A DNA stretch of 64,000 nt from Deltaproteobacteria bacterium GWA2_38_16 (lineage in GTDB: Bacteria > Bdellovibrionota > JACOXK01 > 2-02-FULL-40-11): contig MGPE01000002.1 of NCBI GenBank assembly GCA_001797335.1, positions 270,102 through 334,101 on the forward strand. The letters run 5' to 3'. Below are positions 38,369 through 63,032 of the stretch, piece by piece. Below the pieces are notes generated by a model, which did not search any database, had not been told where the DNA came from, and saw only the letters and a program-made list of their open reading frames with translations. The first letter of the stretch is position 1, and each line of letters opens with the position of its first letter. Made by a program: the position numbers and the translations under genes.

Positions 38369-39067
38369 ATGGAGGTTTCGTTTAAAAAAGATCACTATAG
38401 TATTCTTATCGTTGATGATGATGAAAAAGATGTTCATCAGGTCAAAGAATATTTCGAGCAACGAAATTATCAAATTCAGCATGTTAAGACGGAAAAGGAA
38501 GCTATTGAAAATTTTAACAATAAGCAATTTGATATTGTTATTTGTGAATATATTTTTCTAGATATGGAAGGGGGGAAACTTTACACAACACTGAAGAACA
38601 TAGATGTTTATATACCGATTATCGTTTTTTCCCATTTTTCGGATGTTCAGCATAAAGTGGCCGCGTTTAAAAATGGGTGTGATGATTATGTTGCAAAGAC
38701 CTCTGAACTAGAAGAATTAGAAATAAGAATGACGGCTCTTCTCCGGAGAATTTACCCCCCCCACTTTTGTTATTTAGTTCGTTTTAAGGATATGGAACTG
38801 GATATGGTTCGCCGAAAAGTAAAAAAAGAAGGAAAAGAAATTGATTTGACAGAAAAGGAATATAAGCTTTTAGCGTATTTGGTAAAAAATAAAAATAAAC
38901 TGGTAACCCGGGAGATGATTTTAAATGAGGTGTGGGAGAAAAATGAAGAAACTCTGACTAATATCATTGATGTATATATTAATTATCTTCGAAAAAAAAT
39001 AGATCTTCCCAATAAAGAGTCTCTGATAAAAACCATCCGCGGCGTTGGCTATAGGATGGATGATTAA
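38369..39067 (+). CDS. OmpR-family response regulator with atypical receiver
   Basis: 232 aa: an N-terminal receiver domain (about 9-125) and a C-terminal OmpR-type winged helix (LTEKEYKLLAYLVKN, then NIIDVYINYLRKKI and TIRGVGYRM). In the receiver the acid pair DDD (16-18), Ser88 and Lys110 are present. The phospho-acceptor position aligned by the FDIVICEYIFLDMEGG segment is Glu60 instead of Asp, and the cis-Pro after Lys is Thr111. It may therefore be locked on or respond without phosphorylation. No histidine kinase is nearby. No ribosome site precedes the ATG. The last 16 codons are duplicated at 62934-62981, at the far end of the glycan island. Confidence 0.88.
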   Translation: MEVSFKKDHYSILIVDDDEKDVHQVKEYFEQRNYQIQHVKTEKEAIENFNNKQFDIVICEYIFLDMEGGKLYTTLKNIDVYIPIIVFSHFSDVQHKVAAFKNGCDDYVAKTSELEELEIRMTALLRRIYPPHFCYLVRFKDMELDMVRRKVKKEGKEIDLTEKEYKLLAYLVKNKNKLVTREMILNEVWEKNEETLTNIIDVYINYLRKKIDLPNKESLIKTIRGVGYRMDD

Positions 39068-39118
39068 TTTTAATACGCGTGAATGATTTCCCATCACAGC
39101 CGTTTTAGAGGAAATTGG
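39020..39118 (+). repeat. Island-flanking direct repeat, left copy
   Basis: 99 bp matching 62934-63032 at 96 positions; the first 74 bp are identical. It contains the end of the response-regulator gene and, on the minus strand (39070-39118), the end of a transglutaminase-like gene. In the latter one Trp codon is a TGA here. It marks the left border of the glycan island. Confidence 0.9.
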
Positions 39119-39119
39119 G
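39070..39119 (-). pseudogene. Relic of transglutaminase-like gene 3' end (island left border)
   Basis: The minus strand reads QFPLKRL-stop-WEIIHAY and then TAA. This is the same C-terminus as the intact gene at 62984-63580, except that the first Trp of the WW pair is TGA. Upstream codons are replaced by island DNA. It is a decayed duplicate of the junction. Confidence 0.75.
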
Positions 39120-39143
39120 TAGTGCAACTAATAAAGATTTTAA

Positions 39144-39171
39144 TAAAAAAATTAGCTATTTTCTAGCTAAT
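39144..39171 (-). terminator. Rho-independent terminator of the LPG-synthase-like gene
   Basis: ATTAGCTA and TAGCTAAT form a perfect 8-bp stem around a 5-nt loop. On the minus strand this is followed by seven T. It sits 12 bp after the stop of the gene at 39184-40068, just inside the island border. Confidence 0.65.
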
Positions 39172-39183
39172 ACTGGGAGCAAG

Positions 39184-40068
39184 TTATGAGATCCCACTCT
39201 TACTATAAATTAACCTAAAATATCTCCCTTTCATAAAAAAAATAAACCCCAGAGATACGGTTATAATAAAAAAGAATAAGCGGAAAATTAAAACCATACT
39301 TAATGCAAGAGGACTAGCCACGCCCAATAAATCCAATAAAAAATACATAGAAATATCATTGACCCCTAGCCCTAAGGGTATTCTGGATAACTTTCCCAAC
39401 AAAAAGGGAATCCAAAAAACAGCATAGGCTTGTATAAAACTTATTTTTGCCCCCACCAATAGGGAGCAAACCCACATCCACAGGCCATTTAAGATACTTA
39501 TCATGAGTAAAATAAGAAAAATGGGAAGAAGACTTTTGAGGGTTATTTTACTCCCCGAACACTCTTGAATAAAAGTCTCTATCATTTTTTCAAAAATATT
39601 TAATCTTTTCCAAAGTTTTAAAGGAAGCAGATTCTTCAGAAAAATAAATACTTGAGAATATCTTAACATCACAAAAAACAGCCCAGAAATTAAAATCATT
39701 AAAACAACGATCAAATTTAAAAAAGAAAGATTTGGATAGCTTAAAGACACAACGTTAACTGCAATCAGAAAACTAAGACAATACATTATTAAATTATAAA
39801 TAAACTCAGCGGATGTGGCGATAAGGGTCTTACTCACAGCAATATTATAGAGTTTTTTTAATAAACTCGCACGCACAACCACTTGGGTTCCACTAAAAAA
39901 GGTAAGATATTGGAAACCGTAAGAAATACATAAAATAAAAAACCAATTTTTCCAATGTAACTTTACACAAAACTGTTTAAATATTAACGAATTTTTAATG
40001 GAAATTAAGAGAATAGAAATTAAATATAAAACCATTAAAAGGCTCGCTAGCAATGAAAATTTTAACAT
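39184..40068 (-). CDS. LPG-synthase-TM (UPF0104)-like membrane protein
   Basis: 294 aa with about eight predicted membrane helices. The pattern matches the transmembrane domain of the lysylphosphatidylglycerol synthase/AglD superfamily: an early GTQVVVRASLL segment and the late signature SRIPLGLGVNDISMYFLL near residue 240. Family members act as flippases or lipid-linked transferases and are frequent in glycan clusters. No soluble transferase domain is attached. The start overlaps the end of the neighbouring GT4 gene by 7 nt, so both are probably one operon, ended by the hairpin at 39144-39171. Confidence 0.8.
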   Translation of the reverse strand: MLKFSLLASLLMVLYLISILLISIKNSLIFKQFCVKLHWKNWFFILCISYGFQYLTFFSGTQVVVRASLLKKLYNIAVSKTLIATSAEFIYNLIMYCLSFLIAVNVVSLSYPNLSFLNLIVVLMILISGLFFVMLRYSQVFIFLKNLLPLKLWKRLNIFEKMIETFIQECSGSKITLKSLLPIFLILLMISILNGLWMWVCSLLVGAKISFIQAYAVFWIPFLLGKLSRIPLGLGVNDISMYFLLDLLGVASPLALSMVLIFRLFFFIITVSLGFIFFMKGRYFRLIYSKSGIS

Positions 40069-41225
40069 CCCCGCACATCTTGTGTATAAAATTTATCTAG
40101 TCGCGCCACATGATCGGAAAATGAAAAATTTTTCTCTAGCCGCTCAAATCCTGCATCCCCATATTCTTTTTGAAGATTTGGATTTTTAATAAGTTGTATA
40201 ATGGCATCTGCCAAAGTCTCAGGTTGCCTAGCAGGCACTAACAAACCCGTTTTAAACGGAACAATAACTTCAGGGATCCCTTCCACATTTGTAGCAACAA
40301 TGGGTTTTTTAAATAACATTGCTTCTAATAAAACCCGCCCAAACGCTTCCTGCTCTGAACTTAATACAAATATATCAAAAATCTGGGCCCATTGAAAAGC
40401 ATTTGGAACGCTTCCCATGAAAAGCACTTTATCAGCAATTTCTAATTTAAAAACTTGCTTTTGAAAATCTAAAATTTCTAAACCTCCCCCAATAACAATA
40501 ACTATAATATTAGAATGCTCTTTAGCCACAAACTGCAATGCCTCAAAAAAATACTTATAATTTTTCTGGGGTCTAAAATTAGCGATTGTTCCAATAAATA
40601 CTGTCTCAGTGTTCAAATTCTCTTTATGACTTATAAGATCAATTTTTTTAATAAGCTCGACCACAGGAAGGCTTTTTTTAATTAACTCATTTATTTGTAT
40701 TCCGGTTGGAATAACACAAATGGAACTTTTAGCATGATAAGATGTTTTCTCAAGATATGTTTTTACATAATTTGAAATTGCGATAAAATGATTGGTAAAT
40801 CTACGCGACAATCTCTCTATTTTATATATCCATGAATTATCTTTAAATTGATAGGCATGGTGTTGAGTGGTAATCACTGGAATATTAAAAATAAATCCTA
40901 AAAATCGCCCCAGTATGCTGGCATGAATAAGATGCGTATGAATATAGTGTGGCTTAGCACAAATGATAAAACTAATAAGATTAAAAACTTTTAATACTGA
41001 AAACTTACCCTTTTTAATTAAACCCATAATATGCACATCTTTAAATTGTGGATTATATTTTAATATTTCCCCATCCCCTTTTAAATAGGCCACAGCTAGA
41101 GAATATTTCGCTGGGTCTGCATGAGTAATCTCATCCCATAAACGTACTTCCGCTCCTCCAAAATCCATCGTGGTAATGATATGTAAAATTTTTATTTTTT
41201 CCTTCATGTGATCCCGAAGTTCCAT
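40062..41225 (-). CDS. GT4 family glycosyltransferase
   Basis: 387 aa, GT-B fold. The N-terminal domain starts KILHIITTMDFGGAEVRLWDE. The C-terminal donor-binding domain has IGTIANFRPQKNY and the EX7E-like motif SSEQEAFGRVLLEAMLFKKPIV, followed by EVIVPFKTGLLVPARQPE. It transfers a sugar from a nucleotide sugar to a lipid-linked or cell-surface glycan; the sugar is unknown. The first ATG is at 41225. The ATG at 41207 (MKEKIKILH) fits the family start better and has a weak GGGAT. First gene of a two-gene minus-strand operon, divergent from 41310. Confidence 0.88.
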   Translation of the reverse strand: MELRDHMKEKIKILHIITTMDFGGAEVRLWDEITHADPAKYSLAVAYLKGDGEILKYNPQFKDVHIMGLIKKGKFSVLKVFNLISFIICAKPHYIHTHLIHASILGRFLGFIFNIPVITTQHHAYQFKDNSWIYKIERLSRRFTNHFIAISNYVKTYLEKTSYHAKSSICVIPTGIQINELIKKSLPVVELIKKIDLISHKENLNTETVFIGTIANFRPQKNYKYFFEALQFVAKEHSNIIVIVIGGGLEILDFQKQVFKLEIADKVLFMGSVPNAFQWAQIFDIFVLSSEQEAFGRVLLEAMLFKKPIVATNVEGIPEVIVPFKTGLLVPARQPETLADAIIQLIKNPNLQKEYGDAGFERLEKNFSFSDHVARLDKFYTQDVRGC

Positions 41226-41309
41226 ACAGGCAATTCATTCTATTTAAAGAAAAAAAAAACGCTAGGAAAATTCCATGAAACACCTATATACTTCATAGTC
41301 AGTTAATTC

Positions 41310-42473
41310 ATGCAAACTCAAAGAATTTTAATATTTACGAGCATTTTCCCACCAGACATTGGTGGACCGGCCACGTTTGTGAATGAATTCTCCAAGCGCC
41401 TCATCCATTTTGGAGGAAAGGTTCAAATATTAACTTTTTCTAATATAAAGACTTTTCATTTTCAAACTTTTGTAAAAGAAAGAGTAACTATACACAAAAT
41501 TCCTTTTCGCAATCACATTATATTAAGATCATTATACGCTTTGTACTTTCTGATCACCCATAAAAATGAGTACACTCTTATATACGCGCATGGATCTGTC
41601 TGGGATACTGGATTACCTGCGCTTATTGCCACAAAAACACTTAGAAAAAAACTTGTTATAAAGGTTACAGGAGACAATGCATGGGAGCGATCTTTTCAAA
41701 AGAAGAACTTTAACCTCTCTCTTGAAGAATTTTATGTATCCAAGACACCCTTAAAAATAAAAATTTTTAAATTTCTCCAACGTTTTATTAGTAATCATTG
41801 CGATAAAATTATTGTTCCGAGCACATACTGTAAGACATTAGTGGAAAAATGGAACCCGAGTAATTCTAAAAAAATAGCAATCATTTATAACGCTGTTTCT
41901 TTAGACAACCCTCCATATTCTAAAGACAAAATTCGTGAGATTCTGGAACTTAATCCAAAAAGTTTTATTTTACTCTCAATTACGCGCCTAGTACTACATA
42001 AAGGCATACAGGAAATGATTGAAATTATGGATAAGCTTATTACTAAAATCCCACAGGCTGAGCTTCTTATTATTGGATCTGGCCCCGTAAAAATACCTCC
42101 TCGCCCCCATGTAAAACACATGGAAGCCATAGAAAATTCTAAATGTCACTTGTTCTATAAAGCCAGCGATATTTTCATCTTAAATTCAAAATATGAAGGA
42201 TTATCGCATGTAATTTTAGAAGCGATGAGCCATGGCCTTCCCTGTGTTGTTTCTAATGTTGGGGGAAACGCTGAAGTTATTCTCTCAGGCAAAAACGGAT
42301 TTCTATTCAAACACAATGATTATGATGATTGTATAAATAAAATTACAACTTTATATAATAATTCAGATTTGTATAAGAATACCTCTAAACTGGCACTAGA
42401 GAGAGCTAAAAATTTTAGTTGGCAACACTGTCTTGCTCGACATAGAAATATTTTTTCAGAACTTTCCCCATGA
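41310..42473 (+). CDS. GT4 family glycosyltransferase
   Basis: 387 aa with a GT-B fold. The acceptor-side opening is ILIFTSIFPPDIGGPATFVNEF, typical of WcaI/PimB-like enzymes. The donor domain has LLSITRLVLHKGIQEMIEIM, and the conserved LNSKYEGLSHVILEAMSHG provides the two Glu of the family. Adds a sugar during glycan chain assembly; donor and acceptor unknown. The stop overlaps the start of the following membrane protein gene by 4 nt, so the two are translated together. No clear ribosome site before the ATG. Confidence 0.88.
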   Translation: MQTQRILIFTSIFPPDIGGPATFVNEFSKRLIHFGGKVQILTFSNIKTFHFQTFVKERVTIHKIPFRNHIILRSLYALYFLITHKNEYTLIYAHGSVWDTGLPALIATKTLRKKLVIKVTGDNAWERSFQKKNFNLSLEEFYVSKTPLKIKIFKFLQRFISNHCDKIIVPSTYCKTLVEKWNPSNSKKIAIIYNAVSLDNPPYSKDKIREILELNPKSFILLSITRLVLHKGIQEMIEIMDKLITKIPQAELLIIGSGPVKIPPRPHVKHMEAIENSKCHLFYKASDIFILNSKYEGLSHVILEAMSHGLPCVVSNVGGNAEVILSGKNGFLFKHNDYDDCINKITTLYNNSDLYKNTSKLALERAKNFSWQHCLARHRNIFSELSP

Positions 42474-43654
42474 AAGCTCTCAATAACAAAAAACTAATTC
42501 TAGGTATTCTCATTTCAGCAACCTTACTTAGAGTCTTATTTTTGATTTTAAAAAATTATTATTTCAACCTGGACTACACAGAAGATGAGCTAAACTATGC
42601 CATAGGAGGCCAGCATCTAATAGATCATTGGCTTCATAATAAAAATATCGATTTTTTTGAATTTAAGAGTATAGATAAAGGATTTTATTATTTAAATAGT
42701 ATTTTAGAAATAATCGTCGGGAATAACATCACTGCATTGCAAACTATTAGCATCTTCTCTTGGACTCTAGGAAGTTATATTTTATTTAAACTGGTTAAAT
42801 TAATATTTTCTAATCGAGAAGCACTGCTTACTTTAGCGGGATGCTCTTATGCACCTTTTTTAATTTATACTTCCACATTAAATACCAAAGAATCTGTCTT
42901 ATATTTAATATTAAACAGCACTCTATTTTTTTTAGCTCTTTTATTAAAAAAATATTTTCAGCCACTGTATTTAGTAGGATTAATATCTTGCTTAGCATGT
43001 CTTTTATTTTTTCGCCTATACATGGGCCTAATTATTATTACAATTTGCTATATAACTTTTTTTATATACGTCATTTATAATCCAATAAACAAAAAATATC
43101 TTTATATAACGGCCTTGATCCTCATTGCCCTCTTTAGCGCCATTCCTATACATGAATACTTAATTTTTAGGATAGGAGATAAAATTATTTTAAGCACTTT
43201 GTGTCAATCTGTGAATACTGCCTTGCAGAGTAGCTGCACAGGAAAGCACATCTTATATGCCAATGTTGACATAAAAACATTAGGAGCTTTTTTATCTTTC
43301 CTCCCCAAATCACTCATGATGTTTTTTGCAGCCCCCTTACCATATATTTTTTCTAAACCATTAAGTATGTTTGAAAAACTTATTCTGATAGAAGTCATAC
43401 CACTGCTCATCTTAAGTTTATATATATCGAAAGGAGTTTATTTATCTCTTAAAGAACAAAATTTTAACGGAAAATTACTGATTCTTACCATAGCCCTTTT
43501 CACAACCATATTTACAATTATATTTTCTACTATAAATTGCAATCTAGGGACTCTGTATCGGCATAAAAGTTCACTATACCCATTTTATTTTATGTTTATT
43601 GCATATGGAATTCGAAAAAAGCATCACACTCTCAACAAAAATCATTCAACTTGA
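42470..43654 (+). CDS. Multispanning membrane protein, GT-C/polymerase-like
   Basis: 394 aa with about ten predicted helices. After the first helix comes an outer loop with an acidic cluster (DYTEDELNYAIGGQHL) in the position where GT-C transferases (dolichyl-phosphate-mannose-dependent type) carry their catalytic acidic residues. It could transfer a polyprenyl-linked sugar on the periplasmic side, or act as an O-unit polymerase. Sequence alone does not decide. It is coupled (4-nt overlap) to the GT4 gene upstream. Very A+T-rich. Convergent with the next GT4 gene. Confidence 0.65.
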   Translation: MKALNNKKLILGILISATLLRVLFLILKNYYFNLDYTEDELNYAIGGQHLIDHWLHNKNIDFFEFKSIDKGFYYLNSILEIIVGNNITALQTISIFSWTLGSYILFKLVKLIFSNREALLTLAGCSYAPFLIYTSTLNTKESVLYLILNSTLFFLALLLKKYFQPLYLVGLISCLACLLFFRLYMGLIIITICYITFFIYVIYNPINKKYLYITALILIALFSAIPIHEYLIFRIGDKIILSTLCQSVNTALQSSCTGKHILYANVDIKTLGAFLSFLPKSLMMFFAAPLPYIFSKPLSMFEKLILIEVIPLLILSLYISKGVYLSLKEQNFNGKLLILTIALFTTIFTIIFSTINCNLGTLYRHKSSLYPFYFMFIAYGIRKKHHTLNKNHST

Positions 43655-43672
43655 TACTACCATAATCATATT

Positions 43673-44833
43673 TCACTGATTACTGTTTACAAATTCAATA
43701 ATATTATTTACCCGAGTCTTCCAGATATATTGCTTAGCTGTAAGTTTTGAATAATATTTTAATGTTTCCGCCAAATCTTTATTTTCAGAAATATTTGTAA
43801 TTGCCCTTGCAATAGCGAGAGAATTATTTGGTTCAACTAAAATTGCATTCTTCCCATGCGTTAGAATTTCTGCAATAAATGGTAAATTTGGAGCAACCAT
43901 TGGCTTCCCAGCAGCTAAATATTCAAATATTTTTAATGGAGATCTTGGCACATGATTACCGTTCTTATCATAACAAACAACTAATATATCGGCTAATCTT
44001 AAAAACTTCTGCGTATTAATATAATCTGTATACCCCATAAAAAGAACTCTATGATAGACATTAAGCTGCTTAACTAAGTGCTTAAATTGGATTATTTGAG
44101 AAGCTGTACCCCCTAAAATATATAATACATAGCGTTGATTTAAATATTTAAAAGATTCGATAATAAATTCTATTCCCCTATCTTTTGATACGCTGCCTGC
44201 ATATAAAACATTAATTTTTTGATGATCGATATCAACGCATTGGACTGCACGGTTTGTTTTATAATTTAAAAAATCCACTTCACTGGCCCCACTAGATGCA
44301 ACGAGAATTTTATGCTCAAAAATGTTACCATTGTTGATGAGCGCTTCTTTTATAGTTTTATTTAAAACAATGATTTTTGATGCTCGCCTTAAAAGAATTT
44401 TATAAAAAAACATGAAAGATTCAGGTAATCTATGCACTTCATAAATTATTTTTGACTTTGTCAATGAAAACAAAAAAGCAAGATCTTCCTGCCTTACAAA
44501 TATCCACCCTCTTTTTTTGAAGCTTAAGTAAATAAGTGCAGTCAGCCAAAAAAATAAAGTATTAACCCTTGAAAAATTTAAAAACGATAAATATTTAAAC
44601 CTATAAAAAATAAAGAAATCAATTGTGGGTAATCTTTTAATTTTAAATTTCTCAACTCCAAAATACGAAAAAACATCTTTAACTGCTGCCATTCTACTTG
44701 TTTGAAATCTGAAAGGAACAATCAATTCAATTTCGATACCTTGTTTTTTAAATGCAGAACACATATTTACGATTTGAACACAATGGGCCCTTTCTGAAGG
44801 TATTCTGACATTGACTAAGTAGTATAATATCAT
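43673..44833 (-). CDS. GT4 family glycosyltransferase
   Basis: 386 aa. The start MILYYLVNVRIPSERAHCVQ is a typical opening for this GT4 subgroup. The donor domain contains VLYAGSVSKDRGIEFIIESF and later RSPLKIFEYLAAGKPMVAPN, with the second Glu of the family in KIFEYL. It transfers an unknown sugar. The 5' end and upstream region (44802-44859) are repeated in mutated form at 60641-60698, so a second copy of this gene once existed in the island. Confidence 0.87.
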   Translation of the reverse strand: MILYYLVNVRIPSERAHCVQIVNMCSAFKKQGIEIELIVPFRFQTSRMAAVKDVFSYFGVEKFKIKRLPTIDFFIFYRFKYLSFLNFSRVNTLFFWLTALIYLSFKKRGWIFVRQEDLAFLFSLTKSKIIYEVHRLPESFMFFYKILLRRASKIIVLNKTIKEALINNGNIFEHKILVASSGASEVDFLNYKTNRAVQCVDIDHQKINVLYAGSVSKDRGIEFIIESFKYLNQRYVLYILGGTASQIIQFKHLVKQLNVYHRVLFMGYTDYINTQKFLRLADILVVCYDKNGNHVPRSPLKIFEYLAAGKPMVAPNLPFIAEILTHGKNAILVEPNNSLAIARAITNISENKDLAETLKYYSKLTAKQYIWKTRVNNIIEFVNSNQ

Positions 44834-45001
44834 ATGATACGATTAATAATTTTCAATTGATCCTATTAATCACCGGCAAATGAATATTCTTCCTTGCCTC
44901 TTTTTTTGATATATTTAGAATTAATCAACTTTTCCATAACAAGACGATTTTGTCATATTATATTTGAATATCAATGCCAAATTCGTGTATCTTAAAAAAA
45001 T

Positions 45002-45598
45002 ATGACATATGATTATAAATGTTTTTTTGAAAATAAGATCAAGGAAATTGCTAAAGAAGATTATATTATGGATATGGGAGGAGCAGGAGCTTTTCAAAAA
45101 GGGATGCTCAAATACAAAAGTTTATTTATTGGAAGAAAGTATCAAACCTTAGATAGAGCTTCTGAATATAATCCAAATATTGTGGGAGATATTCAGCATT
45201 TGCCAATAAAGAATAATAAGGTAAACGCTATTATTTGTAATTCAGTACTAGAACATTTGCATAGCCCTCATCAAGCTGTTAATGAAATATATAGAGTTCT
45301 TATAAAGAGAGGAAAGTTTTTAGGATATACTCATTTTGTTTATCCTTATCACGCACGGCATAATATCTATGGCGATTATTATCGTTTTACAGAAGAAGCC
45401 TTGAAGTATTTATTTAAAAGATTTGAACATATTGAAATTAAGAAACAAGGAGGCATTTTTAGAGCTTTGATGTTCTTTTCGCCATGGCAAAATAAAACAC
45501 GATTTATCTGGGAACCCATGACGTATATTTTAGATAAATTATTTAAGACCGAGCGTAGGACAACCACTGCGGGTTATTATATTTATGCTATCAAATAA
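45002..45598 (+). CDS. Class I SAM methyltransferase (Methyltransf_11-like)
   Basis: 198 aa. A shortened N-terminus carries a modified motif I (MDMGGAGAF). The family's middle segment is QHLPIKNNKVNAIICNSVLEHLHSPHQAVNEIYRVL, followed by FLGYTHFVYPYHARHN. Enzymes of this kind in glycan clusters methylate sugars, chain ends or lipid carriers. The GGAGA in place of GxGxG is a deviation but is common in this group. It stands alone on the plus strand, 168 bp after a divergent GT4 gene, and converges on the radical-SAM gene. Confidence 0.8.
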   Translation: MTYDYKCFFENKIKEIAKEDYIMDMGGAGAFQKGMLKYKSLFIGRKYQTLDRASEYNPNIVGDIQHLPIKNNKVNAIICNSVLEHLHSPHQAVNEIYRVLIKRGKFLGYTHFVYPYHARHNIYGDYYRFTEEALKYLFKRFEHIEIKKQGGIFRALMFFSPWQNKTRFIWEPMTYILDKLFKTERRTTTAGYYIYAIK

Positions 45599-45612
45599 AT
45601 GGCTTATCTTGT

Positions 45613-46656
45613 TTAAATGAAATTAGAACATACTTTGCAAAGTGAATGTTTCTTCTCGTTAGCCAACTCTCTTACTTTTTTAACATCAGAATTAAACCAA
45701 ATGTCATCGAATTTTTCCGCTAAAATGTTTCCATAAATATAATTTCCATTTAAATCATAACAACACATGGAAATTTTACAATCTACCAAAACAACAAATT
45801 GTGATTCAGCCAAAGAACATTTTGAAGGAGGATTATTAATTATAAGTTTATGGTTTTCCTGTTTATATCTAATTTTGTCTTTATATTCCTTACCATCCGG
45901 GAAAAAAATATCGGCTAATTTTTTAATTTCGTCTTTTGAATAAACATGCTCACAAAGAGCCAGGGATTTAATATGCAAACAATCTACTTTTAAGCAGTCA
46001 CTTAATTTTTTTATTCCCCTTATTTCATTTTGATTGAGCTTATTAAGAATCACTTGTAATTTAATGAATGGTTTTTTTAGCTTTAATCTCTGTTTTTGTT
46101 TGCAAAAATATCCTATATTTCTCATAACCTCAAAAAAATCAGCTTTTTTTCTAAAAGACGAAAAAGATTCTTGCGTAATACCATCTAAACATAAAATAAT
46201 TTCATCTAGCCCAGAGAACAACAGTTCATCTGCAATTTTTTGATCTAACAAGGTTGCATTGGTGCTAATTATAGAATATAAATTTTTCTGATGAACATAA
46301 TTTATCATTTTGCAAATGTCTGGATGTATCAAAGGCTCACCAGTGTAATATAAATAAACTACATGTATTGAATTTTTGATGCTATCAATCGTTAATATGA
46401 AATTAGAAAAACTCATTAATTCTTTTTTTCTAAGTATTTTCTGTCTGGGGGTTGGGCACGTTGGGCATTGCAAATTACACGTATTCCCTATTTCAATCAT
46501 AGCTGAATAAGGGTAATTAAAAAATTTGAACCTCAAGATTGAAATTAGAAAATGCCATGGTTTAAAAAAATCACCTATTAAAATAGGTATTAAAATATGA
46601 CGCTTAAAAACTAAGTAAAAATGCTTCATCTGATTAATACTGACCTGCCTCGACAA
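45613..46656 (-). CDS. Radical SAM/SPASM enzyme
   Basis: 347 aa. The [4Fe-4S]-SAM motif CNLQCPTCP (Cx3Cx2C) is near residues 63-71, preceded by YSAMIEIGN. The SPASM-like C-terminal Cys-rich region runs CSLAESQFVVLVDCKISMCC to CKVCSNFI and would hold auxiliary clusters. Similar enzymes occur in LPS/O-antigen loci, where reactions are mostly unknown (epimerisation, dehydration or methylation-like). An NDK-like fragment lies immediately upstream on the same strand. Catalysis would be cytoplasmic and oxygen-sensitive. Confidence 0.85.
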   Translation of the reverse strand: MSRQVSINQMKHFYLVFKRHILIPILIGDFFKPWHFLISILRFKFFNYPYSAMIEIGNTCNLQCPTCPTPRQKILRKKELMSFSNFILTIDSIKNSIHVVYLYYTGEPLIHPDICKMINYVHQKNLYSIISTNATLLDQKIADELLFSGLDEIILCLDGITQESFSSFRKKADFFEVMRNIGYFCKQKQRLKLKKPFIKLQVILNKLNQNEIRGIKKLSDCLKVDCLHIKSLALCEHVYSKDEIKKLADIFFPDGKEYKDKIRYKQENHKLIINNPPSKCSLAESQFVVLVDCKISMCCYDLNGNYIYGNILAEKFDDIWFNSDVKKVRELANEKKHSLCKVCSNFI

Positions 46657-46670
46657 ATCATTAGAATACC

Positions 46671-46790
46671 CTATAATATTTTTATATTAAACTCACTAAT
46701 AATTTCTCTTATCATACCTTCATCCAAGCGCCGTTCTAAAGTGACAGGCTTAAAAACAATAAGTGACTTGCTTAGCAAAAAAATATATTA
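46671..46790 (-). pseudogene. Fragment resembling the start of nucleoside diphosphate kinase
   Basis: An open minus-strand stretch reads SLIVFKPVTLERR, then DEGMIREIISEF, ending NIKIL-stop. It resembles the N-terminal strand and helix of NDK (xLxxIKPDxVxR...GEIIxRFExxGxKI) but stops after about 35 residues and has only a TTG start. It is best read as a broken gene left in the island. The resemblance is modest. Confidence 0.35.
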
Positions 46791-54525: not shown

Positions 54526-55206
54526 TTATGTCCTTCGAAACCAAACCCAAAAATATTTTGTCCCCTCTCCTTCTGTCTTCAGAATCTGAAGAGGCAATCT
54601 CTCCACCATTTTATTAATTTGTCGTATCTTAAATGATGGTCCATAGAACCAACTTCCTTTACACGCCGGTGCCCCTCGAAATTGTATTTTTGCTAAACCG
54701 ATCTTTTTAAGAACGCGAGCGATTTCTTCCAAGTTCTTCTTTACCGTTATGCGGCCCGGCATATGCTGGAATGTAATAAATGAAAAAACTGTATCAAAAA
54801 AATCATTGGGGAAAGGATAATATAATCCGTCCGTCGCACATAAATGAATATTAGCTTTGTTAACAAGACGTTTTTCAGCTTGTTTTATCATTTCTTCAGA
54901 AATATCAATGCCATAAACTTCTTGGAAATCTTGTGCAACGAATTCTATTATTCTGCCTATACCACATCCTACTTCGAGAATACACTTAGTACTTAAGTCC
55001 AATTCTCTAAAAAACTTGTCCTCTTTTATGTAATTTATATAATCATCCCTCCCTGATTTAGAGAACTGTTTCTCTGTGATATTTTCCCCAAAATTTGTCA
55101 TCACAAAATAGTTGGCGTTTTTTTTGGCAAGTTGATTCCATTTTTCTTTACTCTCCCCAATTGTCTCATCTGGATAAAATATATTCAACCATTCTCTTAG
55201 TCGCAC
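54526..55206 (-). CDS. Class I SAM methyltransferase
   Basis: 226 aa. Motif I is ILEVGCGIGRIIEFVA (about 79-94), the acidic strand end is VYGIDISEEMI, and motif IV is FDTVFSFITFQHMP with a following EEIARVLKKIG. The GTG start has GGGGTGA 5-6 nt before it, whereas no ATG gives a full N-terminus. Presumed to methylate a sugar or terminal phosphate in the island's glycan. Operon with the downstream membrane protein. About 300 bp of mostly non-coding DNA separates it from the divergent GT4 gene. Confidence 0.83.
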   Translation of the reverse strand: MRLREWLNIFYPDETIGESKEKWNQLAKKNANYFVMTNFGENITEKQFSKSGRDDYINYIKEDKFFRELDLSTKCILEVGCGIGRIIEFVAQDFQEVYGIDISEEMIKQAEKRLVNKANIHLCATDGLYYPFPNDFFDTVFSFITFQHMPGRITVKKNLEEIARVLKKIGLAKIQFRGAPACKGSWFYGPSFKIRQINKMVERLPLQILKTEGEGTKYFWVWFRRT

Positions 55207-55418
55207 TTTAAATCACCCCCCCGATTTCAGCAAACATGACGCCTAGGTTAAAAATTATTCCCCTCTTTGTAGCTCATTGAAATAATTAAGCAATATTAGT
55301 TTTTAGAATTTTTCGATTTGATTGAATTCATTGAATTCAAAAAAAGTTTTTCTGCCCAATTCTAGAAATTAAAAAATGCCTTTCATTTTAATTTCCCGTC
55401 GTGATATATAACTCCACA
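55207..55418. other. Intergenic region without a recognised gene
   Basis: A+T-rich stretch between divergent genes. It contains the short palindrome ttgaattcattgaattcaa (about 55319-55337) and T/A runs. No terminator, promoter of good quality or RNA gene was recognised. It ends in the small frame described at 55419. Confidence 0.4.
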
Positions 55419-55511
55419 ATGATATCAATAAGTCCCTCGGTCTTAATAGAAGCTCAAAAGAGATTTCGAAAGCTCAGAGGCTATCGAGTGATTAATGAAA
55501 ATAAATCATGA
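55419..55511 (+). pseudogene. 30-codon frame, possible transposase-tail relic
   Basis: The frame reads MISISPSVLIEAQKRFRKL and on to NENKS-stop, ending with a 4-nt overlap on the ATG of the next gene. The basic RFRKLRGYR segment is reminiscent of transposase C-termini, and the frame is open some codons upstream of the ATG. It could instead be a leader peptide coupling translation of the glycosyltransferase. Evidence is thin either way. Confidence 0.3.
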
Positions 55512-56767
55512 AGATTCTCTTAGTAACTGATGCTGCGAATGAAACAAGATCGTCTGTTTCAGAAATTGTGTATAGGGACGCGTGTTACTTAAAGGGAAAT
55601 AATTTTGAAGTAGAAATACTAACAACTACTTCTCAAAAAATGGATTATTCAGAATCTGCATCTATGGCTTCTCCATCTATTAATTTTATAGCTACTTTCA
55701 AATTTAAAGAATCTTTAAGATCATGGATTACTTTATATAATCCTTGGGCAGGTAGAAAGTTTAATAAAATCTTAAAAAGGTTTGAACCTGATGTTGTACA
55801 TTTTCATAATGTGCATCAATATTTATCATTTGGACTTCTTCGCTCTGCCAAATTATTTGGTTCAAAAGTTTTTTTAACTGCGCATGATGTTATGCTTTTT
55901 CATTATGGAAAACTTATTGAATTTGATCAAGCTACTATGGGTTTTCCCTATGATAAGGAACTAAGCTATCATGTTTCAGCATGGCAACAAATAAAACGTT
56001 TTAGATATTATTATAATCCTTTTCGTAATTTTATTATTCGACGCTATCTTAAGTACGTAGATAAAATTTTTTCTGTTAGTAATGCGCTTAAACAAACTTT
56101 AAATGATAATGGTATTGAAAATGTAGATGTTGTGTATAATGCTATTGATAGTAATTTGTGGAAACCTGAATATGAAAATATAAAAAAATTTAAAAATAAA
56201 TACCATCTTCATGATAAAAAGGTTATCTTTGTGGGAGGTAGAATGAGTGGGCTCAAGGGTTTTAAACAGATGGTTCTTATTTTAAAAGAAATAATTAATA
56301 ACTTACCCAATACTGTTTTGTTAATTGCAGGAAAAGAAAATGATCATACACTTCAGCTTTCTAAATTAGCTAAGGAACTCAATATTGAAAAGAATGTCAT
56401 ATTTACAGGATGGCTAGAAGGTGAGGAACTTAAATCAGCATATCATAGCAGTGATGTTGTTTGTACTCCTTCTGTATATTTTGATCCATGCCCTATGATA
56501 AATCTTGAAGCTATGGCGTGTCGCAAACCTATAGTAGGAACATGTTTTGGCGGCACTAAAGAAATAGTTAGAGATAATGTACATGGCTATATAGTAAACC
56601 CTTTTGATATCAATGTAATATCAGAACGAATCACTTATTTATTGCGAGATACAGAAAAAAGAAAAGAATTAGGAGAAAATGGTTACCATACAGTGAAAGA
56701 TAACTTTAATTTAGATATTCGGTATCAAAAAACATTAGAATACTATAAGACCTTAAGTGACCAATAA
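55508..56767 (+). CDS. GT4 family glycosyltransferase
   Basis: 419 aa, GT-B fold. The start is MKILLVTDAANETRSSVSEI. The acceptor domain has DVVHFHNVHQYLSFGLLRSA. The donor domain has VIFVGGRMSGLKGFKQMVLIL and the Glu-rich motif CTPSVYFDPCPMINLEAMACRKPIV, then GGTKEIVRDNVHGYIVNP. Typical of enzymes building O-antigen or capsule chains; sugar unknown. The ATG overlaps a small upstream frame by 4 nt. The 3' end overlaps the convergent GT9 gene by 15 nt. Confidence 0.89.
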   Translation: MKILLVTDAANETRSSVSEIVYRDACYLKGNNFEVEILTTTSQKMDYSESASMASPSINFIATFKFKESLRSWITLYNPWAGRKFNKILKRFEPDVVHFHNVHQYLSFGLLRSAKLFGSKVFLTAHDVMLFHYGKLIEFDQATMGFPYDKELSYHVSAWQQIKRFRYYYNPFRNFIIRRYLKYVDKIFSVSNALKQTLNDNGIENVDVVYNAIDSNLWKPEYENIKKFKNKYHLHDKKVIFVGGRMSGLKGFKQMVLILKEIINNLPNTVLLIAGKENDHTLQLSKLAKELNIEKNVIFTGWLEGEELKSAYHSSDVVCTPSVYFDPCPMINLEAMACRKPIVGTCFGGTKEIVRDNVHGYIVNPFDINVISERITYLLRDTEKRKELGENGYHTVKDNFNLDIRYQKTLEYYKTLSDQ

Positions 56768-57949
56768 ATAAACTCTCTCTTTCAATCTTACAACCGCTTT
56801 ATAAACATCCTCAACTGTTATGTCTTGCACGCATTTGCGGTGGCCTTCTTTACAACCGTGGGCTGTCGGCACTATATGCGAGCAAGGAAAACAATATACG
56901 TTTTTTGAAACAATTTCGCACTTTTCATCAATGTCAAGCTGTTCTTCCACATTCATCGGTCCTATTATATCAACTATCGGCACTCCAAGGGCATTAGCAA
57001 TATATAGTGGTCCGGTATCGACGCTTATAAAAATTTTTAAAAATTTTATTAGAGCCGGAACTTCGGATAAGCCGAAAACTTCGGAGGCATCGGAAGCACT
57101 ATTTTTCATATTAGACAAAACTTTTTTTATAAAGGGCTTGTCCGAGGGCCCTCCAAAAAAAATTATTCTCGCTCCCATATTTTGAATCAAAATATCAGCC
57201 AGAGCGGAAAATTTTAACAAGCCCCATTCCTTTATTTTATTTCCCGCAGTAGGAGAAATCCCCATGATTAAATCGTTTTCTTTTATATTATTTTCTCTTA
57301 GAAAATCCTGAGCCTTTGCGATGTCATTACCATCAAAAAAAACGTCTCTCTTTTCGCTATATTCCTTAACACCTAAAAATTTAAGCATTTGTAAATACTG
57401 ACGAAGAACTAATTTATTTTGTTCATAATCAATATGATGCTTACTTAATATAGAAGCAAGATAAGCGGCCCTACTTACATATTTTGACCTTAACAGCACT
57501 CTATGCGATGCTAACGCCCAAAACGGGAAAATTGTATTAAAAAGAGTGGGAGCCAAAGAAAAACTCCAATCAAATTGTTTTTTCCGAGCATCTCTTATTA
57601 GTCTTAGTCCGCCTAGAAATCCTTGATATCTTTTATCGTCCAAAATAATAAGTTCATCTATATGAGTATTTTTTATTAAAATACCTTTTGCTCGCGAAAT
57701 AATCAAAACACTAAGCAGAGAAGAAGGAAAATTCTTTTTTATTTCTCTGAAAACCGGCGTTGTGCAGACAACATCTCCTATTTTAGCTATCTGAATAATC
57801 AAAATTTTTAAACGGCCATCTTTGCTGTGCGAAATTCTCCGTAAAAAAATCCCTAAATATAAAATGGGGCTAAAAATAATCGTTAACCCTAAATATAATA
57901 GATTTTGGGCTAAGCCAAAAATAATTAAATACATTTTTTCATACTTCAA
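56753..57949 (-). CDS. GT9 (heptosyltransferase-type) glycosyltransferase
   Basis: 398 aa. A hydrophobic N-terminal stretch (about 1-35) may lie on the membrane. Then the GT9 opening LKILIIQIAKIGDVVCTTPV and the donor-site block ISVDTGPLYIANALGVPIVDIIGP are clear. The C-terminal CFPCSHIVPTAHGC and KCVQDITVEDV segments are also typical. GT9 enzymes add ADP-heptose or related sugars to LPS inner core, which suggests the island product is joined to LPS. Its base composition looks less A+T-biased than the neighbours, consistent with a separate origin. Confidence 0.88.
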   Translation of the reverse strand: MKYEKMYLIIFGLAQNLLYLGLTIIFSPILYLGIFLRRISHSKDGRLKILIIQIAKIGDVVCTTPVFREIKKNFPSSLLSVLIISRAKGILIKNTHIDELIILDDKRYQGFLGGLRLIRDARKKQFDWSFSLAPTLFNTIFPFWALASHRVLLRSKYVSRAAYLASILSKHHIDYEQNKLVLRQYLQMLKFLGVKEYSEKRDVFFDGNDIAKAQDFLRENNIKENDLIMGISPTAGNKIKEWGLLKFSALADILIQNMGARIIFFGGPSDKPFIKKVLSNMKNSASDASEVFGLSEVPALIKFLKIFISVDTGPLYIANALGVPIVDIIGPMNVEEQLDIDEKCEIVSKNVYCFPCSHIVPTAHGCKEGHRKCVQDITVEDVYKAVVRLKERVYLLVT

Positions 57950-58004
57950 TCCTTCAATGGAGTGGAAACTACTAAATGACTTTTGTTATTATTTGGTATC
58001 TTTT

Positions 58005-58019
58005 ATGTCAACATGACAT
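58005..58019. promoter_or_regulatory. Short inverted repeat in the divergent GT9/radical-SAM region
   Basis: ATGTCA-ACA-TGACAT forms 6-bp arms with a 3-bp spacer, midway between the divergent genes. It has the size of a dimeric regulator site. No further support. Confidence 0.3.
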
Positions 58020-58156
58020 TTATAGAGTTCTAAAAATGGGGCCAAACTAATACTACTCCGTTAAGTAGATTCTGGTGAAAAAGTTCATTTTTTTTAACCT
58101 TTACCTCAAGAAAAATAAATAGCCTTGATCTTTAACATTTTGCAGTTATAGTTATT

Positions 58157-59605
58157 ATGACACTTATGAAGGTCCTTTTAACATTGCCGCCATTACACAG
58201 CCCAATAAAGGCTAATTTTGTTGACTCATTTGATAATGAGTCAGGACAATACCCTCCGATCGGATTGCTTTATCTAGCAGGATATCTTTTAGAACATTCT
58301 CAATATGAGGTACATGTCTTAGATCCTCAAGCTGAGAAGTTAAGTCATGAAGAAACAATCAAAAGGATAGTAGCTATTGGGCCTGATGTTGTCGGCGTCC
58401 ATATGTTGACATTCCACCTTATAGACAGCCTCAAAATGATACAAAATATAAAAAAAATTCTCCCTAAAACACGTATTATTTGTGGAGGACCTCACGTACA
58501 TATTTATCCAAGAGAAACTCTTATGCAACCGGGCATTGATTTTACATTGGTAGGAGAATGCGAGCAAACTTTTAAGATTTTTTTAGACTATTTGGAAAAT
58601 AAATGTCCTATAACTGATGTTAACGCTTTATACTATTTTGATCATGAGGGGAATATACAAAATACAACACGAAGTCCGTTACTTGCTAATCTTGATGAGC
58701 TTCCGCATCCGGCAAGAAATCTTTTAAATCCAACTTTTTATTCTTCTGTGCTGGCAAAGCAATCCGTTACAACAACTCTTATGACATCACGAGGGTGTCC
58801 TTACAAATGTATCTATTGTGATCGTCCAGTTTTTGGAAAAGATTTTAGAGCTCGCTCACCCGAAAATGTTCTTGAAGAAATTGAGCAATGTATACAATTA
58901 GGCATATTTGAGTTTAACATATTTGATGATACTTTTACTATTGATCGAGAACGAGTAATAGCTATATGTAATCTTATCATTGAAAGAAAACTTCCAATCA
59001 GATGGACGTGTCGCAGCAGAGTACACTTAGTTAGTGAAGAAATTTTAGATAGAATGAAAAAAGCAGGTTGCGGCCGTATTTCGTTCGGGATTGAAACAGC
59101 GGATGATAAAGTTGGCAGGATCTTGAAAAAGGGATCTGATATAGATCAAGCAAAATATGCAATTAGAGCCACAAAAGCCGCTGGCATTGAAGTGCTTGCA
59201 GATTTTATTATTGGATCCCCTGGTGAAAGTAGGAATGGAATTAATAAAACAATTTCATTTGCTTTGGAGGAATCGCCAAACTATGCGCAGTTTTCTATTA
59301 TGACTCCTTACCCAGCGACGCCCCTCTATGCTATGGGATTGAATACAAAGCTTTATAAATTTGATCACTGGAGAGAATTTGCAAGAAATCCAGATCCAAA
59401 CTGGGAGACTCCTATTTGGCATGAAAACTTCACTAAAAGAGAGCTCATTAAAATTGTAAAGCAAGCTTATTTTAAATTTTATTTTAGACCTGAATATTTA
59501 TTCACTCAGCTTAGAAGTCTACAATCATTTAATGAGCTCAAGCGTAAGGCGCGAGCTGGACTTAAAGTTTTTACAACTAAATTTACACCCTCATTAACAG
59601 CATAA
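58157..59605 (+). CDS. B12-binding-domain radical SAM protein
   Basis: 482 aa. An N-terminal Rossmann-like cobalamin-binding domain (about 1-140; PPIGLLYLAGYLLE, then IGPDVVGVHMLTFHLIDSL and RIICGGPHVHIYP) is followed by the radical SAM domain with SRGCPYKCIYCDRP (about 212-225) and the SFGIETADD segment. The DxHxxG cobalamin motif is not evident, as in many class B members. Such enzymes methylate unactivated carbons or do other radical chemistry, often on sugars, lipids or phosphonates. A weak -35/-10 pair (TTGATC, TATAGT) ends 4 bp before the ATG; a second ATG at 58166 may be the true start. Heads a four-gene plus-strand run. Confidence 0.85.
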   Translation: MTLMKVLLTLPPLHSPIKANFVDSFDNESGQYPPIGLLYLAGYLLEHSQYEVHVLDPQAEKLSHEETIKRIVAIGPDVVGVHMLTFHLIDSLKMIQNIKKILPKTRIICGGPHVHIYPRETLMQPGIDFTLVGECEQTFKIFLDYLENKCPITDVNALYYFDHEGNIQNTTRSPLLANLDELPHPARNLLNPTFYSSVLAKQSVTTTLMTSRGCPYKCIYCDRPVFGKDFRARSPENVLEEIEQCIQLGIFEFNIFDDTFTIDRERVIAICNLIIERKLPIRWTCRSRVHLVSEEILDRMKKAGCGRISFGIETADDKVGRILKKGSDIDQAKYAIRATKAAGIEVLADFIIGSPGESRNGINKTISFALEESPNYAQFSIMTPYPATPLYAMGLNTKLYKFDHWREFARNPDPNWETPIWHENFTKRELIKIVKQAYFKFYFRPEYLFTQLRSLQSFNELKRKARAGLKVFTTKFTPSLTA

Positions 59606-59611
59606 TACGCA

Positions 59612-60601
59612 ATGAAGTTATTTGTTCAAATTCCGTGCTTCAACGAAGAGCATACATTAAAATATGTTATAAATAGTATTCCAAAGAAAATTGATGGCAT
59701 TTCTGAGCTTAAAATAATCATTATAGATGATAGTAGTACAGACAATACCATTGAAATAGCAAAGTCTGCCCGAGTAAATTATATTCTTAAAAATCACTGT
59801 AATTTAGGGCTTGCCCAAACATTTAAACGCGGTCTTGAGGCATGTTTGTACCTCGGCGCAGATATCATTGTAAATACTGATGGAGATAATCAATACAACA
59901 ATGAAGATATCTCAAAAATTATTAAACCCATTTTGGAAAATAAAGCAGATTATGTTGTTGGATGCAGGGATATTCGTAGACACTCTGAATTTTCTTGGTC
60001 GAAAAAAATATTTCAGCTCCTCGGATCAAAAATTATTCAAAAAATGACGGGTGAAAATATTAGCGATGCTACAAGTGGATTTAGGGCAATGAATCGCAAT
60101 GCTGCACTTCAGTTTTCAATATTAAATCATTTTAGCTATACATTGGAAACATTAATTCAAGCCAGCAGAATAGGCCTGAAAACAATCGGAATTCCCATTA
60201 GAAACAACCCTGCTTTGCGACCTTCTCGCTTATTTCGGTCCATTCCAGAATTCATACTTAAACAATCAATGACAATTGTAAGCATCTATTTATTCTGGAA
60301 TCCCTATCGGTTTTTTTTCTACCCAGCTCTTATATCTTTTTTTATTTCTTTATTTAGCTCTTCAAGAGTTATATACTATCTTTTTTTTGTAGAGAGGGGC
60401 TTTGAAAAAATAAAAATTGGTTCTGCTATATTCTTTAGTATTTCTTTCACATTTACACTTATTTTGATTATTGCTGGATTATTGGGGCAAGTTATTTTTA
60501 GTTTGCGAATGCTCATGATAGATCTTCGTACTCGCGTTAGGAATATAGAACTTCAAAGAAAAATCAAGCCGCATAATTTAGACATTATCACAATCAATTA
60601 A
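59612..60601 (+). CDS. GT2 family glycosyltransferase with two C-terminal helices
   Basis: 329 aa, GT-A fold. The start is MKLFVQIPCFNEEHTLKYVI, with IIIDDSSTDNTIEIA as nucleotide-binding strand. NTDGDNQYNNEDI provides the DxD-type metal site, and ATSGFRAMNRNAALQF matches the dolichyl-phosphate-mannose-synthase-like subgroup. Two membrane helices near 240-300 anchor it. It probably makes a polyprenyl-phosphate sugar that GT-C-type proteins of the island could use. It starts 6 nt after the radical-SAM stop, so the two are co-transcribed. Confidence 0.89.
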   Translation: MKLFVQIPCFNEEHTLKYVINSIPKKIDGISELKIIIIDDSSTDNTIEIAKSARVNYILKNHCNLGLAQTFKRGLEACLYLGADIIVNTDGDNQYNNEDISKIIKPILENKADYVVGCRDIRRHSEFSWSKKIFQLLGSKIIQKMTGENISDATSGFRAMNRNAALQFSILNHFSYTLETLIQASRIGLKTIGIPIRNNPALRPSRLFRSIPEFILKQSMTIVSIYLFWNPYRFFFYPALISFFISLFSSSRVIYYLFFVERGFEKIKIGSAIFFSISFTFTLILIIAGLLGQVIFSLRMLMIDLRTRVRNIELQRKIKPHNLDIITIN

Positions 60602-60603
60602 AA

Positions 60604-60672
60604 TTAATTTAAAATGCTCTTGTGTCCATCAAATCGGGGGATTCTGACATTGACTATGTAGTATAGTATCAT
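60604..60672 (-). pseudogene. Relic of a GT4 gene 5' end
   Basis: The minus strand reads MILYYIVNVRIP and then unrelated codons to a stop (22 codons). The first twelve codons and the upstream region (60641-60698) align with the start of the GT4 gene at 44833 (44802-44859). The body of the gene is gone, so this is a recombination scar from a second copy. Confidence 0.7.
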
Positions 60673-60739
60673 ATTATATGGTTAATAATTTGCGATTGCC
60701 TATATCAATTCTCATTATTACCATATTTGAGAAATCTTT

Positions 60740-61903
60740 ATGAACATATTAATGATTAGTTTAGATAAATCTTTACTCGCCCAACAAGAACATTCAGAAA
60801 GCATTTCAAGGCACAAAGACTATGGGAAATATGTAGGCAACCTATTTATTATATGTTTTAATTTAAAGTCACCTTTATTGTCTCCTATCCATCAAATCAA
60901 TTTATCAAAAAATGTAGCAGTTTATCCAACTCATTCATCTTCAAGATTATTTTATATTATTGATGGATTTAAAGTAGCAAATAAAATATTTACCAAAAAT
61001 TCCATTCAGCTAATTACGACCCAGGACCCTCTTTTAACAGGATTATTGGGAATCTTTCTAAAATGGAGGTATAAAATTCCCACTTTAATTGGAATACATG
61101 GCTCTTTTTTTGATAAACGATGGATAAGAGAACAATGGATCAATCCATTTCTATATTTACTGGGAAGATATGTTGTAAAAAAATCTGATTTTATTCGTGT
61201 TGTTAGTCGTCAAGCTAAATCTGAACTTCTCGAGTATGGCATTCATAAAAATAAGATTTTCATTGCTCCAGTGCCAGTAAAGCTTGAAACTTTCTCAAAG
61301 TACAATAACGATACAGTACAATATCTCAAAAAATGTCATGCGGGTAGGAAAATTATCCTGCAAACAAGTACTCTAACAAAAACCAAAAATGTTTTGATGC
61401 TTTTAAATGCTCTACATAAAATAAAAGAGCAAGCATTTCCCGTACATCTTTGGCTTATTGGTTCAGGGCCTGAGAAAAAAAATTTAATTGCCTATACCAA
61501 CAGATTGAAACTCAATAACGATGTCTCTTTTTTAGGACAACTTCCACAGATGGAACTTGTCAACTATTACCATGCAGCTGATATATTTGTCTTAGCTTCC
61601 TATAATGAATCTTTTGGTCGAGTACTTCTAGAAGCTGCAATGGCAAAAAAACCTATTATTGCAGCTCAATATAGAGGCCCCCTAGATATCTTTTCTGATC
61701 GTAAAAGTGCGCTCTTTTTCAATCCCAATAGCACCAGCTCATTGGTAGAACAAATTGTGCATCTTTTGGAGAATCCTCAGATAGCATTTCAACTTGGGGT
61801 AGAAGCATATAACGATGTTAATCGCAGATTCAGCTATGAAAAAAATATTCACAAAATTATGGAAAGCTGGAATTTATCAGTAGTCCCACAACACTTAATA
61901 TAA
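60740..61903 (+). CDS. GT4 family glycosyltransferase
   Basis: 387 aa, GT-B fold. The opening is MNILMISLDKSLLAQQEHSE, with a flexible loop and ITTQDPLLTGLLG in the acceptor domain. The donor domain has IILQTSTLTKTKNVLMLLNAL and VLASYNESFGRVLLEAAMAKKPII with the conserved Glu pair, followed by FNPNSTSSLVEQIVHLLENP. It is the third gene of the plus-strand run; the GT4 relic lies just upstream in the opposite sense. Sugar unknown. Weak ribosome site. Confidence 0.88.
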   Translation: MNILMISLDKSLLAQQEHSESISRHKDYGKYVGNLFIICFNLKSPLLSPIHQINLSKNVAVYPTHSSSRLFYIIDGFKVANKIFTKNSIQLITTQDPLLTGLLGIFLKWRYKIPTLIGIHGSFFDKRWIREQWINPFLYLLGRYVVKKSDFIRVVSRQAKSELLEYGIHKNKIFIAPVPVKLETFSKYNNDTVQYLKKCHAGRKIILQTSTLTKTKNVLMLLNALHKIKEQAFPVHLWLIGSGPEKKNLIAYTNRLKLNNDVSFLGQLPQMELVNYYHAADIFVLASYNESFGRVLLEAAMAKKPIIAAQYRGPLDIFSDRKSALFFNPNSTSSLVEQIVHLLENPQIAFQLGVEAYNDVNRRFSYEKNIHKIMESWNLSVVPQHLI

Positions 61904-61914
61904 ATACCAATTTA

Positions 61915-62940
61915 ATGAATTTACTTATTATAACACAAAAAGTAGATAAAAATGACGGCGTGCTCGGATTTATGCACGGGTGGATTACTGAATTTGCAAA
62001 ACATTGTTCGAGCATTATCGTTATCTGCCTTCAAGAAGAAAAGCACTACTTACCAAAAAATGTAAAAGTGCTGAGTTTGGGAAAAGAGGAAAAGCAGTCA
62101 CGATTGCAGTATCTTTTGCGATTTTATCAATACATTTTTCAAGAACGCGACAATTATGATCATGTATTTGTGCATATGAATCCAGTATATGTGGTACTGG
62201 GTGGTTTGTTCTGGAAATTGCTGAGAAAGAAAATAGGTTTTTGGTATACGCATAGTTCAGTAAATATAAAATTGAAAATCGCCGCGTTTGTTACCAACAT
62301 AATTTTTACTGCTTCAAAACAAAGTTTCAGGCTGCCAAGTGAGAAAGTGAAAGTTGTTGGTCATGGTATAGATACCGACGCCTTTCTCCCACAAGAAAAC
62401 GGGTTACAAGGAAAAATAATATTGAGTGTGGGGAGAATTTCTTCTACAAAAAGGCAATGTGAGACGGTTAAAATATTTGAGAAGGTGTCTAACGAAATTC
62501 CCAATGCTGAGTTGCACATTGTAGGATACCCGGTGACCAATTCCGATAAAATATATTACAGCGAGCTTCATATGTGTGTTCAGAAAAGCAGAATTAGTGC
62601 AAAAATAAAGTTTATCGGAGCGGTTCCGCATTTTCAAATGCCACAGATATACCACACTGCGAGCGTATTGATAAATCTAAGCAAGACCGGCAGTCTTGAT
62701 AAAGATGTACTTGAAGCGATGGCGTGCGGTGTTTTGCCAGTTTCCACTAATGAGGCGTTCAAAGATATACTTCCTGAGATGAATGTTGCAAAAGACGCTG
62801 CTGATGCGGAAAAAAAATTGAATGGGATTTTAAATATAAATGAAAAAGAAAAAATTGATCACGGAAAAGTATTCCGGACATATGTAGAAGAGAATCATAA
62901 GCTAAAAGTATTAGCTAAGAAAATTATAAAAAATCTCTGA
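61915..62940 (+). CDS. GT4 family glycosyltransferase cut at the island border
   Basis: 341 aa. Opening MNLLIITQKVDKNDGVLGFMHG; donor domain with IILSVGRISSTKRQCETVKIFEK and SKTGSLDKDVLEAMACGVLPVS. It is shorter than its neighbours. The last codons and the TGA stop (62938-62940) lie inside the right flanking repeat, so the original 3' end was replaced when the border formed. The donor site is complete, so activity is plausible. Base usage is less A+T-biased than nearby genes. Last gene of the island. Confidence 0.85.
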   Translation: MNLLIITQKVDKNDGVLGFMHGWITEFAKHCSSIIVICLQEEKHYLPKNVKVLSLGKEEKQSRLQYLLRFYQYIFQERDNYDHVFVHMNPVYVVLGGLFWKLLRKKIGFWYTHSSVNIKLKIAAFVTNIIFTASKQSFRLPSEKVKVVGHGIDTDAFLPQENGLQGKIILSVGRISSTKRQCETVKIFEKVSNEIPNAELHIVGYPVTNSDKIYYSELHMCVQKSRISAKIKFIGAVPHFQMPQIYHTASVLINLSKTGSLDKDVLEAMACGVLPVSTNEAFKDILPEMNVAKDAADAEKKLNGILNINEKEKIDHGKVFRTYVEENHKLKVLAKKIIKNL

Positions 62941-62981
62941 TAAAAACCATCCGCGGCGTTGGCTATAGGATGGATGATTAA
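62934..62981 (+). pseudogene. Relic of the response-regulator 3' end (island right border)
   Basis: An exact copy of the last 16 codons of the response-regulator gene including its TAA (SLIKTIRGVGYRMDD-stop). It is preceded by glycosyltransferase sequence instead of the rest of the regulator. It is not translated in this frame as a gene. Confidence 0.85.
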
Positions 62982-63032
62982 TTTTAATACGCGTGAATGA
63001 TTTCCCACCACAGCCGTTTCAAAGGAAATTGG
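62934..63032 (+). repeat. Island-flanking direct repeat, right copy
   Basis: 99 bp matching 39020-39118 at 96 positions. Here the minus strand encodes the intact C-terminus of the transglutaminase-like gene, so this copy has kept that end of the original junction while the left copy has kept the response-regulator end. Confidence 0.9.

Follow-up and report, generated by a model that had tools for sequence, protein, structure and literature searches.

A probable integrase-free genomic island at an insertion hotspot marked by three copies of a transglutaminase-like gene end

Genes and features of the locus

The window, which is the whole 64-kb stretch of DNA analysed here, forms the right end of contig C2 in the draft genome (19 contigs) of an uncultured groundwater bacterium. 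A GAPDH-II-like gene and an RluA-family gene, each conserved in relatives, enclose two large blocks of genes together with a response regulator gene (RR) and a transglutaminase-like gene (TG), whose start overlaps the stop of the RluA-family gene. The features are listed in Table 1.

Table 1. Features between and including the two core genes (window coordinates)
Feature	Position	Strand	Description
Left core gene, GAPDH-II-like	12037..13125	+	Weak match to type II GAPDH; 72-82% identical and single-copy in family
Fn3-associated/CHB_HEX_C repeat protein	13207..17025	+	Accessory position
DUF4143 ATPase	17048..18187	-	Nine-copy family
Copy A	18304..18345	-	Putatively displaced TG 3' end; runs on into LLTRLYFL and a stop
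Block 1	18349..39011		DUF4402/PapD-like cluster, surface-type proteins, RR
RR, response regulator	38369-39067	+	Response_reg and Trans_reg_C
Copy B	39012..39118		RR 3' end and presumed dead TG 3' fragment with premature TGA
Block 2, glycan island	39119..62925		20 ORFs
Copy C	62926..63032		RR 3' fragment and 3' end of intact TG
TG, transglutaminase-like gene	62984-63580	-	Transglut_core; 3' end is the repeated putative target
Right core gene, RluA-family pseudouridine synthase	63577..63999	-	Cut by contig end

Eleven of the 20 ORFs in block 2 are of the glycosyltransferase type, three encode methyltransferases, two radical SAM proteins and one a flippase (Polysacc_synt). The others are an LPG_synthase_TM gene, a GDSL-like gene and an ORF without a family. 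The original prediction that everything between copies B and C serves glycan biosynthesis holds for nearly all of these ORFs. Genes are found on both strands. The GC content of the block is foreign, at 31.3% compared with 36.6-40.3% in 23.8-kb tiles across about 490 kb of contigs C2 and C8 of the same genome. The gene at 52681-54519 had no match among 289 other genomes searched in the phylum, and self-BLAST of C2 and C8 (about 550 kb) found no second island of the same architecture. Within the block, a 72-bp direct repeat (82%) at 44799-44870 and 60638-60709 is promoter-like and lies ahead of plus-strand genes.

Block 1 has a near-normal GC content (36.2%). It opens with a cluster of DUF4402, PapD-like chaperone and 882-aa protein genes, and a DUF4402 gene stops about 10 bp past copy A. 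This cluster (18355-22856, two DUF4402 genes) resembles a chaperone-usher pilus cluster, in which an usher role is a guess. RR is paralogous to two RR genes that lie in tandem on contig C8.

The ORFs examined in the region include none with a recombinase domain, which upholds the earlier statement that no integrase lies inside, and these ORFs also held no integration or transfer domains. Elsewhere the genome encodes two tyrosine recombinases (C2 and C8) and three serine recombinases (C8 and C10), none of them near the islands of the window. The 64-kb window contains no tRNA or tmRNA genes, which sets it apart from tRNA/tmRNA-targeted islands, and an Rfam scan of it returned nothing.

Copies of the transglutaminase-like gene end

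Recomputation reproduced both the coordinates and the identity counts of the original prediction for B and C. The stretches at 39020-39118 and 62934-63032 are identical at 96 of 99 positions, the first 74 being exact. With an 8-bp leftward extension, the repeat is a sharp-edged unit of 107 bp at 95% identity (BLASTN, E=7e-41), which excludes a match by chance. Its gene content was likewise described correctly as the ends of RR and TG: the unit takes in the final 56 bp of RR and the final 49 bp of TG, separated by 2 bp. Mismatches number two in the RR fragment and three in the TG fragment. Most of the 74 exact bases belong to RR and to the extreme end of TG, beyond the core shared by A and C. 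The TG fragment of copy B is of the IIHAY type and has a premature TGA, as expected of a dead TG 3' fragment. If the block were excised between B and C, RR and TG would both remain whole. In its DNA fold, the 107-bp unit does not stand out (z -0.56), and inspection by eye recognised no dif-like site.

Copy A was first met as a partial match when the junction served as query against the whole assembly. It is 42 bp long, 93% identical to C (E=2.7e-8, three mismatches) and sits 44.7 kb away from TG. Its minus strand is TG coding sequence; tblastn with TG as query recovered residues 177-195 there. The search for more copies that had been proposed along with the original prediction returned a partial third copy, confined to the TG part, and no others: junction and motif searches (up to 3 mismatches) of the 2.0-Mb assembly gave no further copies beyond A, B and C. 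A possible fourth, degenerate copy at about 18245-18278 did not rise above background. A 25-bp stretch of the core had no exact match in viral contigs.

In the TG tail, R180, Q184, P186 and R189 are invariant across five aligned family members. Because this pattern is kept in five TG proteins, the repeat is TG's own conserved end, with no unrelated element fused on. Beyond the sequence common to both, copy A encodes ELLTRLYFL and copy C EIIHAY, each followed by a stop. The ending at A is closer to those of relatives, of which EFLDLF in G007 is an example, a modest argument that A is the older end. The different, family-like C-terminus at A looks as if the old 3' end of TG had been displaced.

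A scan of genome contigs with TG alone found nothing, and an alignment scan found only relatives at 33-41% identity. In relatives, TG (about 35-43% identity) is located elsewhere. Among the named relatives found with TG are MAGs from groundwater listed under Deltaproteobacteria. Four TG relatives (L033, L035, L055 and L059) lie in clusters with B12-radical SAM genes, and L033, L059 and L062 adjoin a gene read from its sequence, rather than by family search, as asparagine-synthase-like. Such neighbours hint at a role in polysaccharide loci.

The flanking core genes in relatives

The ends of the GAPDH-II-like and RluA-family genes overlap by 29 bp in two relatives (G003 and G004). In G001, three genes lie between them, one of which is LptC-like, and in the present genome they are 50 kb apart with TG included. 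The flanks are thus conserved and adjacent in relatives with variable content between them, as in an insertion hotspot. The RluA tail in G000 and G001 stops short of the overlap, so the empty state is not proven to be ancestral.

Two genes tested from block 1 (18942-21590 and 28698-30116) had no match in seven relatives. It had been suggested that relatives might carry RR directly convergent with TG as the undivided locus, but the undivided core locus there is the GAPDH-II-like gene convergent with the RluA-family gene. The relatives compared all come from other genera, and the predicted intermediate with RR convergent on TG was not seen among them. The same island genes in all relatives, which would have spoken against an insertion, were not seen: none of the genes tested from the two blocks turned up in the relatives searched.

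An adjacency of TG and a DUF4143 ATPase gene in G002 was considered as the ancestral neighbourhood of A and given little weight, since the ATPase family has nine copies and its tree shows no clear pairing. Two DUF4143 ATPase genes from different genera, L092 (G000:C6:94150-95550) and L099 (G003:C77:3800-5250), share 89% DNA identity, suggesting recent transfer. At the end of C8 (L126, G000:C8:219000-220382) there is a tandem repeat, ATTGTCATCCCC(T/C)GCGAAGCC. It adjoins an ortholog of the gene upstream of the RluA-family gene in G001 and G003, so that C8 probably continues into the right end of the window.

Possible origins of the blocks, and other repeats in the genome

The original prediction was that the glycan island inserted by recombination at the junction of the convergent RR and TG genes and duplicated it. 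Insertion of a glycan block with a duplicated junction and no integrase fits the foreign GC, the sharp-edged repeat and an excision that would leave RR and TG intact. Nevertheless, the convergent junction is unlikely to have been the primary target. At 18.3 kb lies a third copy of the TG 3' end that runs into a different C-terminus, and RR belongs to the block between A and B, of which the two tested genes are absent from relatives. RR convergent with TG does not seem to be the original undivided locus; the TG 3' end was probably hit twice.

The locus probably represents a genomic island that lacks an integrase and sits at an insertion hotspot, not a new kind of element. With a probability of about 0.5, we read it as a hotspot where the 3' end of a protein gene has gained two islands in tandem, neither with an integrase, by accretion in the manner of CIMEs (cis-mobilizable elements). 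Blocks 1 (18.3-39.0 kb) and 2 (39.1-62.9 kb) would then lie in tandem at the TG 3' end within a 50-kb accessory hotspot bounded by the GAPDH-II-like and RluA-family genes, each boundary being a copy of the TG tail. We infer the following order. Block 1 would have entered at the 3' end of TG. The former C-terminus would thereby have been moved away to A, and TG would have received a new end (IIHAY) from the block, followed by the RR 3' end. Block 2 would have carried the same end, that is the last 56 bp of RR and the new TG 3' end, and would have entered the new junction to give B and C. The machinery was most likely attachment-site-like recombination, the recombinase being now absent or acting from elsewhere.

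A, B and C have the same orientation and about 28-30 bp in common, so two insertions would have hit one small target within 50 kb, and a target of about 30 bp of TG used twice does not look random. An attachment site gives such a target, as does repeated recombination in shared sequence. CIME-like accretion of elements with one shared end would account for all three scars together with the exchanged TG tail. Speaking against accretion, the repeats are of unequal length (42 and 107 bp), and their shared core is not free of mismatches, although copies of an att core in recent use would normally be identical. The 74 exact bases lie outside the A/C core, so that under accretion one must also suppose an identical end on both blocks. 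In addition, no recombinase is linked to the blocks and the GC content of block 1 is near-normal. It is rather doubtful, although conceivable, that a family of surface-gene islands targets the 3' end of a polysaccharide-associated transglutaminase-like gene, with the replacement 3' end providing a new protein tail and the recombinase acting in trans.

Homologous recombination without a site-specific enzyme is a tentative alternative to accretion. DNA with a copy of the convergent RR-TG junction, either a circle or DNA taken up from a differently arranged relative, would have entered by a single crossover or unequal exchange, duplicating the junction around the glycan block. The 74-bp exact identity of B and C, mostly outside the A/C core, is consistent with this, as is a region without a recombinase; the genome has ComEC, making DNA uptake possible, and hotspots without mobility genes are known in which exchange takes place at flanking core genes (PMC5635113). 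The A/C match, only 42 bp with three mismatches, is short for RecA-type exchange, however, and homologous recombination does not by itself account for the exchanged TG C-terminus and requires a donor that already held the junction. A single homologous crossover thus accounts well for B and C and less well for A.

An error in the assembly path at the 74-bp exact repeat is unlikely. The chromosome would then carry RR and TG undivided, with the glycan block as a 23.9-kb circle or elsewhere, which is also the product expected of excision. In favour of such an error, the genome is a draft, some assemblers use k-mers shorter than the 74 exact bases, and a partner swap at the repeat would yield exactly the observed arrangement. 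B and C have different SNPs and different flanks on both sides, however, so both must exist in the DNA, and copy A and the hotspot are independent of the B/C junction. More improbable still is repair of a staggered break, or a tandem duplication followed by loss, in which repair synthesis would have copied the junction as foreign DNA was captured, leaving a long target duplication without an element. The spread of mismatches over the 107-bp copies (two in RR and three in TG) is what uniform decay predicts, but it would take a coincidence for two events in a 50-kb region to overlap the same 30 bp or so.

Among known systems, CIMEs are genomic islands that accrete in tandem at a gene 3' end (PMC5704250). 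Like them, the present blocks are in tandem, lack a recombinase and integration or transfer genes of their own, and are bordered by direct repeats of the 3' end of the target gene, which is restored on one side; A, B and C are att-like, one lying in a gene 3' end, their att function being putative. In contrast to CIMEs, the repeat cores are imperfect, no related integrase-bearing element is known here and excision is putative. The ssrA islands of Dehalococcoides also lie several in tandem downstream of one gene, bordered by repeats derived from its 3' end; some of them lack an integration module, and the low GC of the vcr island is comparable (PMC3146451). Their target is a tmRNA gene, their repeats are 20 bp and a Ccr-like recombinase is involved (PMC3146451), whereas here the target is a protein gene, the repeats are 42-107 bp and no recombinase is nearby.

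Half of known hotspots are without mobile elements and 27% are without integrases and transposases, with recombination at the flanking core genes (PMC5635113). Variable cargo between two conserved genes with no mobility genes found is common to these hotspots and to the present one, but internal direct repeats of one gene's end do not belong to that hotspot model. Replacement flexible genomic islands carry surface-glycan genes at a fixed chromosomal place (PMC4119200), as here, although in the present case existing cargo would not have been replaced, the insertion having occurred beside it with a duplicated junction. New here are the lineage and the gene that serves as target. The locus illustrates how an uncultured groundwater bacterium could acquire a complete cell-surface glycan locus in a single block, at a located hotspot whose three scars have a readable order. 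A single locus now allows cargo gain by integrase-free hotspots to be tested, since the junctions in close relatives should lie at different positions under site-specific accretion than under homologous insertion.

Two other kinds of dispersed repeat were seen. A 63-79-bp unit occurs in four dispersed copies on C2, at about 1684-1765 of the window (C2:271785-271880) and near C2 positions 43606, 96447 and 209945. It contains CGGACGG..CCGTCCG and TGGCACN5TTGCA, and resembles a sigma-54 promoter preceded by a site common to the copies. Outside the window, an 85-97-bp unit with nested inverted arms is found at C2:3787, 85398 and 220880 and at C8:148824, with up to 98.8% identity between copies.
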